Shown piece after piece: positions 55,854 through 62,400 of a DNA stretch of 64,000 nt. The stretch covers positions 496,001 to 560,000 of the forward strand of contig NZ_JALHQD010000002.1 of NCBI RefSeq assembly GCF_022842145.1, in the 5' to 3' direction. The DNA is from Tabrizicola sp. Its GTDB lineage: Bacteria > Pseudomonadota > Alphaproteobacteria > Rhodobacterales > Rhodobacteraceae. The notes below the pieces were generated by a model. It was not told the origin of the DNA. It saw only the letters and a program-made list of their open reading frames with translations, and ran no database searches. Made by a program: the position numbers and the translations under genes. Position 1 is the stretch's first letter. Each line of letters starts with the position of its first letter.

Positions 55854-56310
55854 CCTTGTCCACGGTGGGCGGTCCTGTCTGGCCCTGACAAATCAATGTC
55901 TTGGGCGTGGGCGTTCAGGAACTGTCAAGAATTGGTCGGCGCGTCGGAGTAGGTCCGGCGCGCCGTTTCGTTTGGGTCATCAGCCACTCCGCCGCGGCCA
56001 GATTGAAGACCCGTGCGCTGGTGATCATCATCGCGCGGGGGTGGCGGTGACGCCCTTGGTCTTCGCCGGGAGGATGGCAGGTTTGGAGCCGGGGTTGCGG
56101 GACTGACCGGCAATCCCGGTGTGGCTGATCGCGCACCGGGAAGTGCAGACCAGCCGTCGCATCCGGGTGGTGTTCGGTTTTCTGGCCGAGGCGCTGGGCT
56201 GCGGCCAAGTCCTTGAAATTTTTGTCGAAGCGGCCGGTATCGGTCCGACTGTCCGTTCCTTGCCGGGGAAGGGCGGGAAATCTCCTGCTGTATATTGCAA
56301 ACCTTACAAG
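55854..56310. other. Intergenic stretch before the RND operon, no gene seen
   Basis: About 460 bases. A minus-strand frame (complement 55915-56031) would encode 38 residues but has no ribosome-binding site. No RNA gene was recognised. The last 60 bases become AT-rich and contain the operon promoter (see the operator entry). Confidence 0.4.
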
Positions 56311-56326
56311 CTTTATATATGTAAAG
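56295..56326 (+). promoter_or_regulatory. Promoter/operator of the sulfide-type RND operon
   Basis: An AT-rich island holds TTGCAA (56295-56300), 17 bases, and TATGTA (56318-56323) as a possible promoter. Overlapping the -10 region is the near-palindrome CTTTATATATGTAAAG (56311-56326), 20 bases before ATG 56347. BigR-type regulators bind AT-rich palindromes over the -10 region, so this is the likely site for the ArsR-family sensor encoded at the end of the operon. Confidence 0.55.
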
Positions 56327-56346
56327 GCCAACCAGGAGACCGTTGC

Positions 56347-57351
56347 ATGATCCGTCCCGCATTCTTTCTGCTCGCCACCAGCCTTCTCGCCCTGTCGGCA
56401 CCGCTCTGGGCCGAGCCCTTTACGCTGGTCCCGACCGCCGTGACGGAGTGGAAGGCGGTCTATGGCACGGTCGAGGCGAAGGACCGCATCCCGGCGCGGG
56501 CCCGGATCGGTGGGGTGTTGGTCGAGCTGTTGGTGGCCGAGGGCGACGCAGTCGCCGCGGGTCAGGAACTGGCCCGGATCGTCGATGACAAGCTGGAGTT
56601 CCAGTTGGCGGCGCTTGCGGCACAGACGGAGGCGGTGGCGGCGCAACTGGCCAATGCCGAGGCGGACCTGCAGCGCGGTGAAGACTTGCTGAAGAACGGG
56701 GTGACCACGGCACAGCGGGTGGACGGGCTGCGGACCCAGGTGGATGTGCTGAAGGGCCAGATCGCCGCGCTGGAGGCGCAGTCGGATGTGATTGCGCAGC
56801 AGACGAAGGAAGGTGTGGTGGTGGCCCCGGTCGCGGGCCGCGTGCTGGACGTTCCGGTCACCAAAGGCGCGGTGGTCATGCCGGGCGAGCCTGTGGCGGT
56901 GGTGGGCGGTGGCGGGACCTTCCTGCGGATCGCGGTGCCGGAGCGCCATGCGGCGGCGCTGGAGGCGGGCGATCGGATCGTGCTTTCCGAGGCGGACGTC
57001 GACCGCGAAGGGACGCTGGCCCGGGTCTATCCGTTGATCGAGGGCGGCCGGGTTGTTGCGGATGTCGAGATCGAGGGTCTGCCGGACACCTATGTCGGAG
57101 CGCGGATGCTGGTGCGTCTGCCCGTCGGTGAACGCGACGCCCTGCTGGTGTCGGCGGCCGCTGTCGTGACCCGGTCGGGACTGGATTTCGTCGGAGTGCA
57201 GGGTGCCGAAGGCCCGGCTCTGCGGTCCATCGTGACGGGTGAAGTTCATGTGGTCGACGGGGTCGAGATGGTCGAGGTGATCAGCGGACTCGCGGCCGGT
57301 GATGTGGTGGTTTCGGCCGCGGATGTAGCCACTGGGGTGGGTCATGAGTGA
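56347..57351 (+). CDS. RND efflux periplasmic adaptor (membrane fusion) protein
   Basis: 334 residues from ATG 56347 (CAGGAG nine bases upstream). The signal peptide is MIRPAFFLLATSLLALSAPLWA. The barrel-sandwich halves are RARIGGVLVELLVAEGDAVA and VVVAPVAGRVLDVPVTKGAV, flanking a short coiled-coil hairpin (residues about 85-145). Beta-barrel and membrane-proximal domains follow. It links the RND pump to an outer-membrane channel that is not encoded nearby. The RND gene starts eight bases before its end. Confidence 0.92.
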   Translation: MIRPAFFLLATSLLALSAPLWAEPFTLVPTAVTEWKAVYGTVEAKDRIPARARIGGVLVELLVAEGDAVAAGQELARIVDDKLEFQLAALAAQTEAVAAQLANAEADLQRGEDLLKNGVTTAQRVDGLRTQVDVLKGQIAALEAQSDVIAQQTKEGVVVAPVAGRVLDVPVTKGAVVMPGEPVAVVGGGGTFLRIAVPERHAAALEAGDRIVLSEADVDREGTLARVYPLIEGGRVVADVEIEGLPDTYVGARMLVRLPVGERDALLVSAAAVVTRSGLDFVGVQGAEGPALRSIVTGEVHVVDGVEMVEVISGLAAGDVVVSAADVATGVGHE

Positions 57352-60300
57352 ACGTGGCAAGCATCCGCTGGGGATCGCCGGAGGGCTGACGAAGGCCTTC
57401 ATCAGTTCGGCGCTGACGCCCTTGTTCATCCTGGCCGCACTGGCAGCAGGGATCGTGGCGCTGGTCAGCCTGCCGCGCGAGGAAGAGCCGCAGATCTCGG
57501 TCCCCTTGGTCGACATCCATGTGATGGCGCAGGGGTTGCGTGCCGAGGATGCGGTCAAGCTGGTGACCGAGCCGCTGGAAGTGATCGTCAAGGGAATCAA
57601 CGACGTCGAGCATGTCTATTCGTCCACCCGGGACGATGCGGCGATGGTGACGGCGCGGTTCGAGGTCGGCACGCGGTCCGAGGATGCGATCCTGCGGGTG
57701 CATGACAAGGTGCGGGCGAACATCGGGGCGATCCCGGTGGGCATCCCCGAGCCGCTGATCGTGGGCCGCGGGATCGACGATGTGGCGATCCTGACGCTGA
57801 CGCTGTCCGCCGAAGACCTGTCCGCCAATGACCTGACCCGGATCGCGCGGGTGTTGCAGACCGAGGTTGCGAAGACCGAGAATGTGGGCCTGACCTATCT
57901 GGTCGGCGACGCGCAGGACGCGATCCGGATCGAACCGGACCCGGACCGGCTGGCGCTGTATGGCGTGACCTTGCAGCAGTTGGCCGGGAAGGTTTCCCAG
58001 GCGAACCGGACGCTGAACACCGGCAAGCTGCGCGATCAGGGTCAGATGGTCGACCTGGTGGCAGGCGAGACGCTGACGGCTCCGGCCGAGGTGGCGCAAT
58101 TGCTGCTGACCACGCGGGACGGGCGGCCGGTCTATGTCTCGGACGTCGCCACGGTGCGGTACGTGGAGAACACCAAGGACGCCATCGTCTCGCATCTGGC
58201 GAAGGACGGGACGGGCGGCCCGGCCGTGACGCTGGCGATTGCGAAGCGGGCGGGGGCGAACGCGGTCGTGGTGGCCGAAGAGGTGCTGCACCGGGTCGAG
58301 GCGCTGGAGGACAAGCTGATCCCCGAGGGTGTGATGGTGACGATCACCCGCGACTATGGCGAAACGGCGAATGAGAAGGCTAACGAGCTGCTGTTCCATC
58401 TGGGGCTGGCGACGGTGTCGATCATCCTCTTGGTCTGGCTTGCCATCGGCTGGCGCGAGGCGGGGGTGGTGGCGATCGTCATTCCGGTGACGATCCTGCT
58501 GACGCTGTTTGCGGCCTGGGTCATGGGCTTCACGCTGAACCGCGTGTCGCTGTTCGCGCTGATCTTCTCCATCGGTATCCTGGTCGACGACGCCATCGTG
58601 GTGATCGAGAACATCGACCGGCACTGGGGCATGGACCGGCGGAAGTCGCGCATTGAGGCGGCCATCGAGGCGGTGGCCGAGGTCGGCAACCCGACCATCG
58701 TGGCGACGCTGACGGTGGTGGTGGCCCTTCTGCCGATGCTGTTCGTCAGCGGGCTGATGGGGCCCTACATGTCGCCGATCCCGGCCAATGCCAGCGCGGC
58801 GATGATCTTTTCCTTCTTCGTTGCGGTGATCATCACGCCCTGGCTGATGGTCAAGATCGCGGGTCGGGCGGACATGCACGACCATGCCGGCGATGATGTC
58901 CACGGCGGACATCATGGTGGGTGGCTGGAGAAGGCCTATGCAGCCACCGCCCGCCCGATCCTGAAAACCAAGGCCCGAAGCCTGGGCTTCCTCCTGGTCA
59001 CGGCGGTGCTGTCCTTTGGGTCGCTTGCGGCGCTGTATACGCGGGACGTGACGGTCAAGCTCTTGCCCTTCGACAACAAGTCGGAGCTGAGCGTGGTGAT
59101 CGACCTGCCCGAGGGCTCGTCCATTGAGGCGACGGACCGCGTGGCGCGGGATGTGGCGGATGTGGTGATGGGATTGGAGGAGGTGACCTCGGTCCAGACC
59201 TATGCCGGCACGCCTGCGCCGTTCAATTTCAACGGGTTGGTGCGGCATTACTACCTGCGGTCGGAACCGCAGCTGGGCGAGGTGGCGATCAACCTTGCGC
59301 CGAAGACCGACCGGGACCGGGCGAGCCATGACATCGCGCTGGACCTGCGGGAGCGGTTGGCCTCGCTTGCGGTGCCCGAGGGGACGAGCCTGAAAGTGGT
59401 GGAACCGCCGCCGGGGCCGCCGGTGATCGCGACCCTTTTGGCCGAGGTGTACGGGCCCGATGCCGAGACGCGGCGCGAGGCGGCGACGATGATCAGGGCT
59501 GCGTTCGAAGCGGTGCCGTTCATCGTGGACGTGGACGACAGTTTCGGGACCCAGGCGCGGCGGTTGCGGGCGACAATTTCCAGCGATGACCTCGATTTCT
59601 ACGCGGTGCAGGAGCAGGACGTGTTCGACACGCTGGCGCTGCTGAATGGCGGGCAGACCGTCGGCTATTCGCACCGGGGCGAAGGCCGCCTGCCGATCCC
59701 GCTGGTGGTGGGCCGCGACAAGTCGGACCGGGTGCTGGATGAACGGTTCCTGACGACTCCGATCCCCGCCAATGCCCTGCCGGGCGCGCGGGGCGTGGTG
59801 GAACTGGGCGACGTGATCCGGGTCGAGGAGGAGGCCGCGAGCTTCCCGATCTTCCGCCACAACGGCCGCGATGCCGAGATGGTGACCGCGGAATTGGCCG
59901 GCGACTTCGAAGCGCCGCTTTACGGGATGCTGGCGGTGGCCGACGAGATCGAGAAGATGGATTGGCCGGAAGGCATGAAACCCGAGATCTCGCTGCATGG
60001 ACAGCCCGAGGACGAGGGCAAGGTCACCCTCCTGTGGGACGGCGAGTGGGAAGTGACCTTCGTCACCTTCCGCGACATGGGGGCCGCGTTCGGGATAGCA
60101 CTTCTGGGCATCTACATCCTGGTCGTGGCGCAGTTCGGGTCGTTCAAGCTGCCCTTGGTGATCCTGACGCCGATCCCGCTGACGTTTCTGGGAATCATGG
60201 TCGGGCACTGGCTGTTTGCGGCCCCGTTTTCGGCCACGTCCATGATCGGCTTCATTGCGCTGGCCGGGATCATCGTGCGCAACTCGATCCTCCTGGTGGA

Positions 60301-60553
60301 CTTCATCCGCCACGGGAAGGGGGACACGGTGACGGTGGACCTTCTGATCGAGGCCGGGGCGATCCGGTTCAAGCCGATCCTTCTGACCGCCATCGCCGCC
60401 ATGATCGGCGCGGTGGTGATCCTGGCGGACCCGATCTTTCAGGGTCTCGCGATTTCCCTGCTCTTCGGTCTGCTGAGTTCGACGCTCCTGACCGTCCTTG
60501 TCATCCCGGCGATCTACCGCGTGTTCCGAACCGGGTCGGAAGCCATCGCCTGA
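57344..60553 (+). CDS. RND family efflux transporter permease (AcrB/MdtC-like)
   Basis: 1069 residues with the 12-helix, two-docking-loop plan of RND pumps. The proton-relay aspartates are in FSIGILVDDAIVVIENIDRH (helix 4), and the second half has the matching GFIALAGIIVRNSILLVDF (helix 10). Conserved opening: ALTPLFILAALAAGIVALV. A histidine-rich loop, DMHDHAGDDVHGGHHGG, at about residues 509-527 lies after helix 6 on the cytoplasmic side and is unusual. The substrate is unknown; the operon context with a sulfide-oxidising flavoprotein suggests export of sulfur compounds or of something toxic under sulfide stress. Confidence 0.93.
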   Translation: MSERGKHPLGIAGGLTKAFISSALTPLFILAALAAGIVALVSLPREEEPQISVPLVDIHVMAQGLRAEDAVKLVTEPLEVIVKGINDVEHVYSSTRDDAAMVTARFEVGTRSEDAILRVHDKVRANIGAIPVGIPEPLIVGRGIDDVAILTLTLSAEDLSANDLTRIARVLQTEVAKTENVGLTYLVGDAQDAIRIEPDPDRLALYGVTLQQLAGKVSQANRTLNTGKLRDQGQMVDLVAGETLTAPAEVAQLLLTTRDGRPVYVSDVATVRYVENTKDAIVSHLAKDGTGGPAVTLAIAKRAGANAVVVAEEVLHRVEALEDKLIPEGVMVTITRDYGETANEKANELLFHLGLATVSIILLVWLAIGWREAGVVAIVIPVTILLTLFAAWVMGFTLNRVSLFALIFSIGILVDDAIVVIENIDRHWGMDRRKSRIEAAIEAVAEVGNPTIVATLTVVVALLPMLFVSGLMGPYMSPIPANASAAMIFSFFVAVIITPWLMVKIAGRADMHDHAGDDVHGGHHGGWLEKAYAATARPILKTKARSLGFLLVTAVLSFGSLAALYTRDVTVKLLPFDNKSELSVVIDLPEGSSIEATDRVARDVADVVMGLEEVTSVQTYAGTPAPFNFNGLVRHYYLRSEPQLGEVAINLAPKTDRDRASHDIALDLRERLASLAVPEGTSLKVVEPPPGPPVIATLLAEVYGPDAETRREAATMIRAAFEAVPFIVDVDDSFGTQARRLRATISSDDLDFYAVQEQDVFDTLALLNGGQTVGYSHRGEGRLPIPLVVGRDKSDRVLDERFLTTPIPANALPGARGVVELGDVIRVEEEAASFPIFRHNGRDAEMVTAELAGDFEAPLYGMLAVADEIEKMDWPEGMKPEISLHGQPEDEGKVTLLWDGEWEVTFVTFRDMGAAFGIALLGIYILVVAQFGSFKLPLVILTPIPLTFLGIMVGHWLFAAPFSATSMIGFIALAGIIVRNSILLVDFIRHGKGDTVTVDLLIEAGAIRFKPILLTAIAAMIGAVVILADPIFQGLAISLLFGLLSSTLLTVLVIPAIYRVFRTGSEAIA

Positions 60554-60571
60554 TCAGAAGAGGAGACTGAA

Positions 60572-61855
60572 ATGGCACATGTCGTTGTTTTGGGGGCCGG
60601 ACTTGGCGGCGCCATCATGGCTTACGAGTTGAAGGACCAGTTGCGTCCCGAGGACAAGGTGACGGTGGTCACGAAGGACCCGAAGTATCACTTCGTGCCC
60701 TCGAACCCCTGGATCGCCGTCGGCTGGCGCGACCGGGAGGATATCACGGTGGATCTGGCACCGGTCATGCAGAAGAAGGGGATCGCCTTCATCCCAGTGG
60801 CCGCCGAACGGCTTATCCCCGAGGAGGACCGGGTTCTTCTGGTCGATGGCAACTCGGTCCCATACGATTATCTGGTGATCGCGACGGGGCCGGAGCTTGC
60901 GTTCGACGAGGTGCCGGGGTTGGGGCCGCAAGGATTCACCCAGTCGATCTGCCACATCGACCACGCCGAGGCCACGAAGGCGGTTTTCGAGAAACTGGTG
61001 GCCAACCCCGGCCCGGTGGTGATCGGGGCGGCGCAGGGCGCGAGCTGCTTCGGCCCGGCCTACGAGTTCCTGTTCATCCTTGAGACGGCCCTGCGCCGCG
61101 CCAAGGTGCGCGACCGGGTGCCGATGACATTCGTGACGCCCGAGCCTTACGTGGGTCACCTGGGGCTGGACGGGGTGGGGGATACCAAGGGGCTTCTGGA
61201 AAGCCAGATGCGCGAGAAGCACATCAAGTGGATGACCAACACCAGGGTGAAGCGGGTCGAGGAGGGCCATATGTTCGTCGAGGAAGTCGGCGACGATGGT
61301 GTGGCGAAACCCGAGAAGGACCTGCCGTTCGCCTTCTCGATGATGCTGCCTGCGTTCCGGGGGATCAAGCCGGTGGCGGGGATCGAGGGCCTGAGCAATC
61401 CGCGCGGGTTCACCATCGTCGACAAGCACCAGCGCAATCCGATGTATCCCAATGTCTTTGCCGTGGGTGTCTGCGTGGCGATCCCGCCGATGGGGCCGAC
61501 CCCCGTGCCATGCGGCGTGCCGAAGACCGGGTTCATGATTGAATCGATGGTCACCGCGACGGCGCACAACATCGGCAACATCGTGCGCGGGAAGGAACCC
61601 GACAGCATCGGCACCTGGAACGCGGTCTGCCTGGCGGACTTTGGCGACGGAGGCATCGCTTTTGTCGCCCAGCCGCAGATTCCGCCGCGCAACGTCAACT
61701 GGTCGTCTTCCGGCAAATGGGTGCACCTCGCGAAGGCGGGGTTCGAAAAGTACTTCATCCGCAAGCTGCGGAAGGGGACATCCGAGCCGTTCTACGAAAG
61801 CCTGGCACTGAAGGTGCTGGGGATCGACAAGCTGAAGCAAACCACGAAAGGATGA
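60572..61855 (+). CDS. Sulfide:quinone oxidoreductase-like flavoprotein
   Basis: 427 residues. The FAD-binding motif is HVVVLGAGLGGAIMAYEL at the N-terminus, with the second motif PYDYLVIATGPELAFDE and the PNVFAVGVCVAIPP FAD-ribityl segment. Cys127, Cys159 and Cys314 (SICHID, GASCFG, PVPCGVP) fall at positions where sulfide:quinone oxidoreductases carry catalytic cysteines, and the C-terminal amphipathic part suits membrane attachment. It probably oxidises sulfide to polysulfide and reduces quinone. GAAGAGGAG precedes the ATG 18 bases after the RND stop, so it belongs to the same operon. Confidence 0.85.
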   Translation: MAHVVVLGAGLGGAIMAYELKDQLRPEDKVTVVTKDPKYHFVPSNPWIAVGWRDREDITVDLAPVMQKKGIAFIPVAAERLIPEEDRVLLVDGNSVPYDYLVIATGPELAFDEVPGLGPQGFTQSICHIDHAEATKAVFEKLVANPGPVVIGAAQGASCFGPAYEFLFILETALRRAKVRDRVPMTFVTPEPYVGHLGLDGVGDTKGLLESQMREKHIKWMTNTRVKRVEEGHMFVEEVGDDGVAKPEKDLPFAFSMMLPAFRGIKPVAGIEGLSNPRGFTIVDKHQRNPMYPNVFAVGVCVAIPPMGPTPVPCGVPKTGFMIESMVTATAHNIGNIVRGKEPDSIGTWNAVCLADFGDGGIAFVAQPQIPPRNVNWSSSGKWVHLAKAGFEKYFIRKLRKGTSEPFYESLALKVLGIDKLKQTTKG

Positions 61856-61859
61856 TGAA

Positions 61860-62063
61860 ATGTCTATTGATGCCGCTGTTCTGCGTTTTGCCGGGGTGAT
61901 GGTCCTTCTCAGCGTGGTGCTGACGACCTATGTATCGCCTCTGTTCGTCTGGTTCACCGTCTTCATCGGGTTGAATCTGTTGCAATCGTCGTTCACCGGG
62001 TTCTGTCCGGCGGCGCGGGTGTTCCGGGCGATGGGGATCAGGAAGGGGTGCGCCTTCGAGTGA
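61860..62063 (+). CDS. DUF2892 / YgaP-like membrane protein
   Basis: 67 residues with two transmembrane helices. VLRFAGVMVLLSVVLTTYVS, FIGLNLLQSSFTGFCPAARV and FRAMGIRKGCAFE follow the DUF2892 pattern, the same as the membrane anchor of the rhodanese YgaP. The two conserved Cys (GFCPA and GCAF) may interact with persulfide sulfur. Such genes regularly accompany sulfide:quinone oxidoreductases and BigR/SqrR regulators. It starts four bases after the flavoprotein stop. Confidence 0.88.
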   Translation: MSIDAAVLRFAGVMVLLSVVLTTYVSPLFVWFTVFIGLNLLQSSFTGFCPAARVFRAMGIRKGCAFE

Positions 62064-62085
62064 GGCGGGCGTGGAGGAGCGGGTG

Positions 62086-62400
62086 ATGGCGGAGATTCTG
62101 GAAGGGTTCGGCGGTACCGCCGAGCAGGCCGCGAAGGCGGTGGCTTTGCTGAAATCGCTGTCGCACGAAGGGCGGTTGCAGATCCTTTGCTGCCTGGTCG
62201 AGGGCGAGATGAACGTCAGCCAGCTGGCGGAGGCGGTGGGCTCCAGTCCCGTGACGGTGTCGCAGCAGCTGATGCGGCTGCGCGCCGAAGGGATCGTGCA
62301 GACCCGGCGCGACGGCAAGAGCGTGATCTACCGTCTGGCGCGGGCCGAGGTCGCCACCGTGGTCTCGGCCCTGCGCAATGCGTTCTGCAAAAGGGCCTAG
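62086..62400 (+). CDS. SqrR/BigR-type persulfide-sensing ArsR regulator
   Basis: 104 residues from ATG 62086 (GGAGGAG six bases upstream; GTG 62071 is the alternative). The winged helix is LLKSLSHEGRLQILCCLVEG then SSPVTVSQQLMRLRAEGIVQ. Cys35 (or 36) and Cys101 (NAFCKRA) are 66 residues apart, exactly the spacing of the reactive pair Cys41/Cys107 in Rhodobacter capsulatus SqrR. Persulfide linkage between these releases the repressor. It closes the adaptor, RND, flavoprotein and DUF2892 operon and likely controls it. Its stop overlaps the convergent phosphomannomutase stop. Confidence 0.9.
   Translation: MAEILEGFGGTAEQAAKAVALLKSLSHEGRLQILCCLVEGEMNVSQLAEAVGSSPVTVSQQLMRLRAEGIVQTRRDGKSVIYRLARAEVATVVSALRNAFCKRA

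Follow-up and report, generated by a model that had tools for sequence, protein, structure and literature searches.

Oxidation of sulfide by enzymes of the sulfide:quinone oxidoreductase (SQR) family yields polysulfide or zero-valent sulfur, and in regulators such as SqrR and SoxR sulfane sulfur bridges two cysteines, upon which the repressor leaves its operator. We know of no named transporter for the oxidized sulfur that leaves SQR-bearing cells. The RND superfamily of pumps is known mainly for drugs and metals, and to our knowledge the BigR and YgaV operons contain no RND pump. In YgaVP, a described system, a sulfide-responsive repressor of the ArsR type goes together with a YgaP-like membrane protein (PMC9774250), and the locus presented below likewise encodes an ArsR regulator and such a protein.

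RND efflux pumps appear among the gene neighbors of sulfane-sulfur ArsR regulators in a 2025 survey (PMC12423496), whose section 2.1 gives no family, operator or substrate for them. In Azospira suillum PS, SQR is encoded together with an RND permease and an RND adaptor in the operon Dsui_3440-3443, which gave a Bar-seq signal and was highly expressed while H2S was being oxidized; deletion of the operon left the H2S oxidation rate unchanged, and the authors assign this oxidation to the perchlorate reductase and suggest metal-sulfide export for the operon (PMC5358917). The pairing of SQR with an RND pump is thus already in print and is not new. A sequence-only reading of the present locus knew of no description of sulfur export by this pump type, a statement that, given the published RND-regulator neighbors and the Azospira operon, is right only in part. 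In the paper listings and main-text passages searched, we met no account of how widely pump and sulfur genes are associated, of a SqrR site ahead of pump genes or of a pump beside sqrR.

The locus lies in a window of 64,000 nucleotides, the whole stretch of Tabrizicola sp. DNA that was analyzed, and comprises five genes:

56347..57351, + strand: RND periplasmic adaptor, 334 aa, no cysteine (open reading frame, Pfam, TIGR01730 over cut-off)
57344..60553, + strand: RND permease, 1069 aa, no cysteine; D415, D416, R979 (open reading frame, Pfam, alignment)
60572..61855, + strand: type I sulfide:quinone oxidoreductase (SQR), 427 aa; C127, C159, C353 (open reading frame, PDB match)
61860..62063, + strand: DUF2892 / YgaP-like TM protein, 67 aa (PF11127, 43.4 bits, cut-off 25.3)
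62071..62400, + strand: ArsR/SqrR-like repressor, GTG start at 62071 or ATG at 62086 (open reading frame, Pfam, PDB match)

The coordinates bear out the initial description of five genes that overlap or lie less than 25 bases apart: the adaptor and permease frames overlap by 8 bases, and the following intervals measure 18 bases (permease to SQR), 4 (SQR to DUF2892) and 7 or 22 (DUF2892 to ArsR, from the GTG or the ATG start, respectively). Pfam models above cut-off are HlyD_3 and HlyD_D23 in the adaptor, ACR_tran in the permease, Pyr_redox_2 in SQR, YgaP-like_TM in the DUF2892 protein and HTH_5 in the regulator. A class III aminotransferase gene lies 5' of the operon and a phosphomannomutase-like gene 3' of it on the opposite strand, neither being an obvious operon member, and no Rfam family matched at its gathering score. 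The pump had been called complete, which did not hold: the operon encodes an adaptor-permease pair only, Pfam detecting no outer-membrane factor (OEP) among its five genes, and the one OEP-family gene found by a genome search is on another contig (C6). The Azospira operon likewise combines SQR, RND permease and adaptor, a likeness of pumps that goes by their published description; in the published passages about it, that operon differs by a fourth gene of unknown function, by another gene order and by the naming of no ArsR regulator.

Among PDB entries, the operon SQR matches the sulfide-quinone reductase 3sz0 best (E 7.1e-153), which we take to be the Acidithiobacillus enzyme; its three aligned cysteines are kept, and the match to this solved structure is the basis for the assignment to type I. 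C127, C159 and C353 are retained in 52 of 52 SQR hits, some genomes being repeated in this count. For the regulator, the nearest solved relatives are 3pqj (E 2.4e-20), the biofilm growth-associated repressor BigR, and 6o8k (E 2.7e-20), presumably SqrR of R. capsulatus. Domains and PDB matches agree with the earlier view that this is an operon of the sulfide type whose repressor resembles SqrR. That view had also singled out Cys35/36 and Cys101 with a SqrR-like spacing of 66 residues. These cysteines, numbered from the ATG, are residues 40, 41 and 106 from the GTG, and the alignment with 6o8k confirms the spacing by pairing the cysteines of SqrR with C40 and C106. Judged by its ArsR fold and the two cysteines 66 residues apart, the protein would belong to the SqrR/BigR-type persulfide sensors. 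It is not classed as BigR, scoring 86 bits where the NCBIfam BigR equivalog needs 155, a difference from the BigR and YgaV systems. Like Rhodobacter SqrR, whose gene adjoins the same pump type in Rhodobacter-type genomes, it is a two-cysteine ArsR repressor. Compared with the ortholog of R. aestuarii, it is 46% identical across 84 residues; the two differ in recognition helix and operator.

Taken together, the genes present, their recurrence in different orders, the cysteine pair of the regulator and the SqrR-type site before the pumps of many relatives suggest an operon induced by sulfane sulfur, whose adaptor-permease pair exports reactive sulfur derived from SQR. We give this reading, in which we infer repression, direction of transport and substrate, about an even chance. 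SQR of the operon would oxidize sulfide to polysulfide or zero-valent sulfur; sulfane sulfur, as it builds up, would bridge the two cysteines of the SqrR-like repressor, the operator would presumably be released and the operon expressed; and the adaptor-permease pair, joined by a TolC-like channel whose gene lies outside the operon, would pick up polysulfide, zero-valent sulfur or a small thiol persulfide in the periplasm or outer leaflet and expel it. Within this scheme, regulation of the pump module by reactive sulfur is likely, and export of SQR products by the pump is our best guess, the substrate being presumed. The age and breadth of the pairing commend the pump as a candidate exporter of reactive sulfur, a role that, if true, would add a reactive-sulfur substrate to the RND superfamily. 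The unchanged H2S oxidation rate of the Azospira deletion counts against it.

Conservation of the locus was assessed in three sets of genomes. The permease was used to search species genomes, and the best 80 of at least 572 loci were kept; in these, genes were called and neighbors clustered. A family sample of 198 evenly spread genomes contained 50 with a match at E<=1e-250, 48 of which (the window's included) have an ortholog with its neighborhood, the other two having the sister type only. A phylum sample of 398 genomes contained 140 with a match at E<=1e-200, and 32 further orthologs above 1100 bits were fetched; the pumps termed distant are 27, 38-46% identical, among the matches listed. 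Pumps were considered linked if SQR, DUF2892 or ArsR occurred between 6 kb before and 8.2 kb after the permease start.

Linkage was found for 28/32 phylum-sample orthologs, for 26 of the 27 from Alphaproteobacteria outside the window's family (locus L158 is the exception) and for 17/27 distant pumps, with DUF2892 in 17 of these 27 loci and SQR in 3. Within the family, the window included, 17/48 orthologs are linked (18/48 with any sulfur marker), and the 31 unlinked ones weigh against export of sulfane sulfur. The sister clade, with its longer open frames, has no linked member (0/5 and 0/16, hence 0/21), nor are the four other RND genes of the Tabrizicola genome linked (0/4); sister clade and paralogs together rule out chance linkage, some contigs there ending early. 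Recurrence across the sampled relatives likewise rules out a joining confined to one genome: the neighborhood check proposed with the sequence-only reading finds RND, SQR and SqrR genes together well beyond Tabrizicola, and the pump is a genuine member of the operon. In a tree of 134 permeases (FastTree, with a long-branch warning), orthologs and sister pumps occupy separate branches, the distant group is not a single clade, and linkage changes at least 12 times. The module of pump, SQR and sulfane-sulfur sensing is real, old and widespread. As for the sister RND clade itself (L144-L147, L180, L212-L227), its open frames span about 1200-1460 codons with no sulfur marker nearby, and 5-7 cysteines are present in the aligned part where counted.

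Linked loci vary in gene order and strand. The order of the operon, adaptor-RND-SQR-DUF2892-ArsR, is also found in relatives, as are a form without SQR and the order SQR-DUF2892-adaptor-RND, once with ArsR in front. In Thioclava/Defluviimonas-type loci, the RND gene lies next to a sox cluster that encodes SoxX and SoxY, both scoring over cut-off, as well as a TsuA-like transporter (Sulf_transp), which, like a DsbD-like protein, scores under it. Genes for rhodanese, TauE, MBL-fold or OEP proteins are added in some relatives. Three Ruegeria loci (L051, L053, L058) have an RND pump followed by one protein that bears SoxY and SoxZ domains; at L165, L166 and L169, TauE and MBL-fold genes adjoin the pump/SQR/ArsR set; and two distant loci, L193 and L198, hold genes for DUF2892, SQR and an OEP channel lined up with the pump, a full tripartite version, together with a divergent ArsR gene whose product has neither sensor cysteine.

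The cysteine pair was read in 60/74 regulators adjoining pump loci, some genomes being shared between the best-80 loci and the samples. It is present in 28/28 regulators of the best-80 loci, 12/12 of the family sample, 14/26 of the class sample and 6/8 of the distant group. The other 12 class-sample regulators, which all fall within L165-L178, have the first cysteine in the alignment but lack the second; this counts against a sulfane-sulfur-induced exporter, and some pumps may be under a repressor with a different sensing mode.

Three elements were considered upstream of the adaptor gene:

56295..56323, + strand: proposed promoter TTGCAA, 17-base spacer, TATGTA (read from the sequence)
56301..56312, + strand: proposed operator, inverted repeat ACCTT-AC-AAGCT, inside the promoter spacer; recurs in relatives
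56311..56326, + strand: near-palindrome CTTTATATATGTAAAG, present; right arm poorly kept

A consensus promoter scan listed no site at 56295..56323. The near-palindrome CTTTATATATGTAAAG had been put forward as the operator just before the first gene; it is indeed there, and it was rejected as the exact operator on account of its right arm, which the alignment of relatives does not conserve. The form AGCTT-N2-AAGCT, with up to 2 mismatches, is present in 14/14 loci of the window's clade, those of 13 relatives plus the window's own; shuffled sequences average 0.49/14 (highest 3), and 3/107 other upstreams have it. This enrichment test is not independent, as the motif was picked by eye from the same loci.

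A de novo palindrome search by EM upstream of pump operons returned an AtATTC-N8-GAATAT-like motif in linked and unlinked high-scoring loci (mostly Rhodobacteraceae) and in other Alphaproteobacteria, with log-likelihoods of 371, 538 and 217, respectively, against 31-35 for shuffled sequences (one set each). This motif is the published SqrR site, deduced as ATTC-N8-GAAT in R. capsulatus (PMC9774250). Exact copies were counted within 260 bases, leaving the window's clade out of the high-scoring group: 19/39 linked and 31/68 unlinked upstreams of this group carry the site (18/36 and 29/62 when distinct upstreams are considered), as do 7/12 linked and 11/30 unlinked upstreams in the sampled genomes alone, and 5/32 linked and 1/4 unlinked in other Alphaproteobacteria, the control being 8/499 upstreams of other genes in family loci. 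A SqrR site therefore precedes many pump operons, including some without any sulfur gene close by. Its frequency in distant (0/27) and sister (1/5) pumps speaks against the sulfane-sulfur exporter, as does its absence upstream of the operon throughout the window's clade (0/14, the window and 13 relatives). The recognition helix reads SSPVTVSQQLMRLR in the operon regulator, versus [ST]RQAAVSQQLARLR in ATTC-N8-GAAT loci with a SoxR/SqrR neighbor. Joint change of protein and site would produce such a differing helix with a differing site, and may have done so here, to go by a correlation seen in one clade only. The genome's one site within 1 mismatch of ATATTC-N8-GAATAT, at C6:248574, was set aside, since no sulfur gene clearly follows it.

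The permease belongs to the RND superfamily (AcrB-type), having the ACR_tran domain and the proton-relay residues. The relay is D-D-R in 189/190 members of the wider group, the single exception being gapped at the R position, and D-D-K in 25/30 control permeases. Cysteine is absent from 146/158 orthologs (137/149 distinct), from 70/80 permeases of the sampled genomes (38/46 linked, 32/34 unlinked), from 17/27 distant pumps and from 0/21 sister pumps (0/5 and 0/16). Once trimmed to the aligned part, 2/30 AcrB-type controls of the class are cysteine-free, as are, trimmed alike, 2/4 other RND permeases of the genome and 3/6 in-locus RND paralogs; genes over 700 aa lack cysteine in 7/27 cases, large genes in general being no control. 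The zero-cysteine state changes 14 times on the permease tree and partly reflects shared ancestry. A permease free of cysteine would fit a thiol-reactive substrate. As evidence this is weak, since the genome's other RND permeases and the in-locus paralogs include cysteine-free proteins as well and ancestry is shared, and the trimmed controls and paralogs led us to discard it as a strong marker. A permease cysteine acting as sulfur carrier was also discarded: the operon's copy has none, and none is conserved.

Other features of the permease would also suit a metal cation. The loop after TM6 (residues ~508-526) is His-rich, with at least 2 His in 154/158 orthologs and 20/27 distant pumps versus 2/5 sister and 9/30 control permeases, and the acidic residues E46, D587, E595 and D899 are common to linked pumps and absent in the sister clade. 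The pump might then export metal ions, or metal-sulfide species freed or formed with sulfide, sulfur sensing being the trigger only, much as the Azospira authors propose (PMC5358917). However, the permease reaches 241 bits where the HME metal RND model (CusA/CzcA, TIGR00914) requires 701, and its recurring neighbors are sulfur genes, with no metal-resistance gene among those annotated, so that we consider metal export unlikely. Clearance of secondary damage products such as sulfur-modified quinones, lipids or small thiols, as opposed to inorganic sulfur, would agree with the hydrophobic molecules that RND pumps usually take, and with the distant group, in which DUF2892 (17/27) is a commoner partner than SQR (3/27). 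No such damage or repair gene is prominent among the neighbors annotated, though, and we rate this possibility as quite unlikely.

The sox genes and TsuA-like sulfur transporter that adjoin the pump in Thioclava/Defluviimonas-type loci could point to end products, for instance thiosulfate or sulfite, as the exported species; yet small hydrophilic oxyanions are atypical RND substrates, and some relatives already have a gene of the TauE family, a known type of sulfite exporter, which makes this very improbable. Still smaller is the probability we grant to a general stress or multidrug pump merely co-regulated with sulfide oxidation: AcrB superfamily membership and the 31/48 unlinked family orthologs are in its favor, but a SqrR site stands before 29/62 distinct unlinked upstreams of the high-scoring group, linkage survives rearrangements, and the scores for curated multidrug/efflux RND models miss their cut-offs (NF033617, 413 vs 1250 bits; NF000282, 325 vs 1250; TIGR00915, 265 vs 940). 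A bolder form of the preferred reading, export of SQR-derived reactive sulfur, is that of a dedicated RND subfamily under ancestral SqrR-type control, exporting the S0 or polysulfide made by SQR as the missing step to external sulfur, with the near absence of cysteine as an adaptation; we regard this form as possible and rather doubtful.

In R. aestuarii (L085), the pump adjoins the gene of a SqrR that matches 6o8k with E 2e-57. Across the Rhodobacter-type genus of genome G046, a SqrR match at E<=1e-30 is found in 17/18 genomes, and an RND permease gene lies within the 1.5 kb flank of sqrR at 14 of these 17 loci (best per genome), from which we conclude that the pump locus is the usual home of sqrR in the genus. 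Three genomes encode a SqrR that matches the 6o8k chain without a difference over 105 residues, and in all three the pump lies beside sqrR. If the pump is the exporter, sulfur exit could be tested at once in Rhodobacter, where sqrR sits beside it. The Tabrizicola genome also encodes a second SqrR-like regulator (L002, C4:194127-194390), in which the first sensor cysteine is present and the second absent, and, in a 282-codon frame, a SoxY-domain protein (L279, C5:208567-208869).
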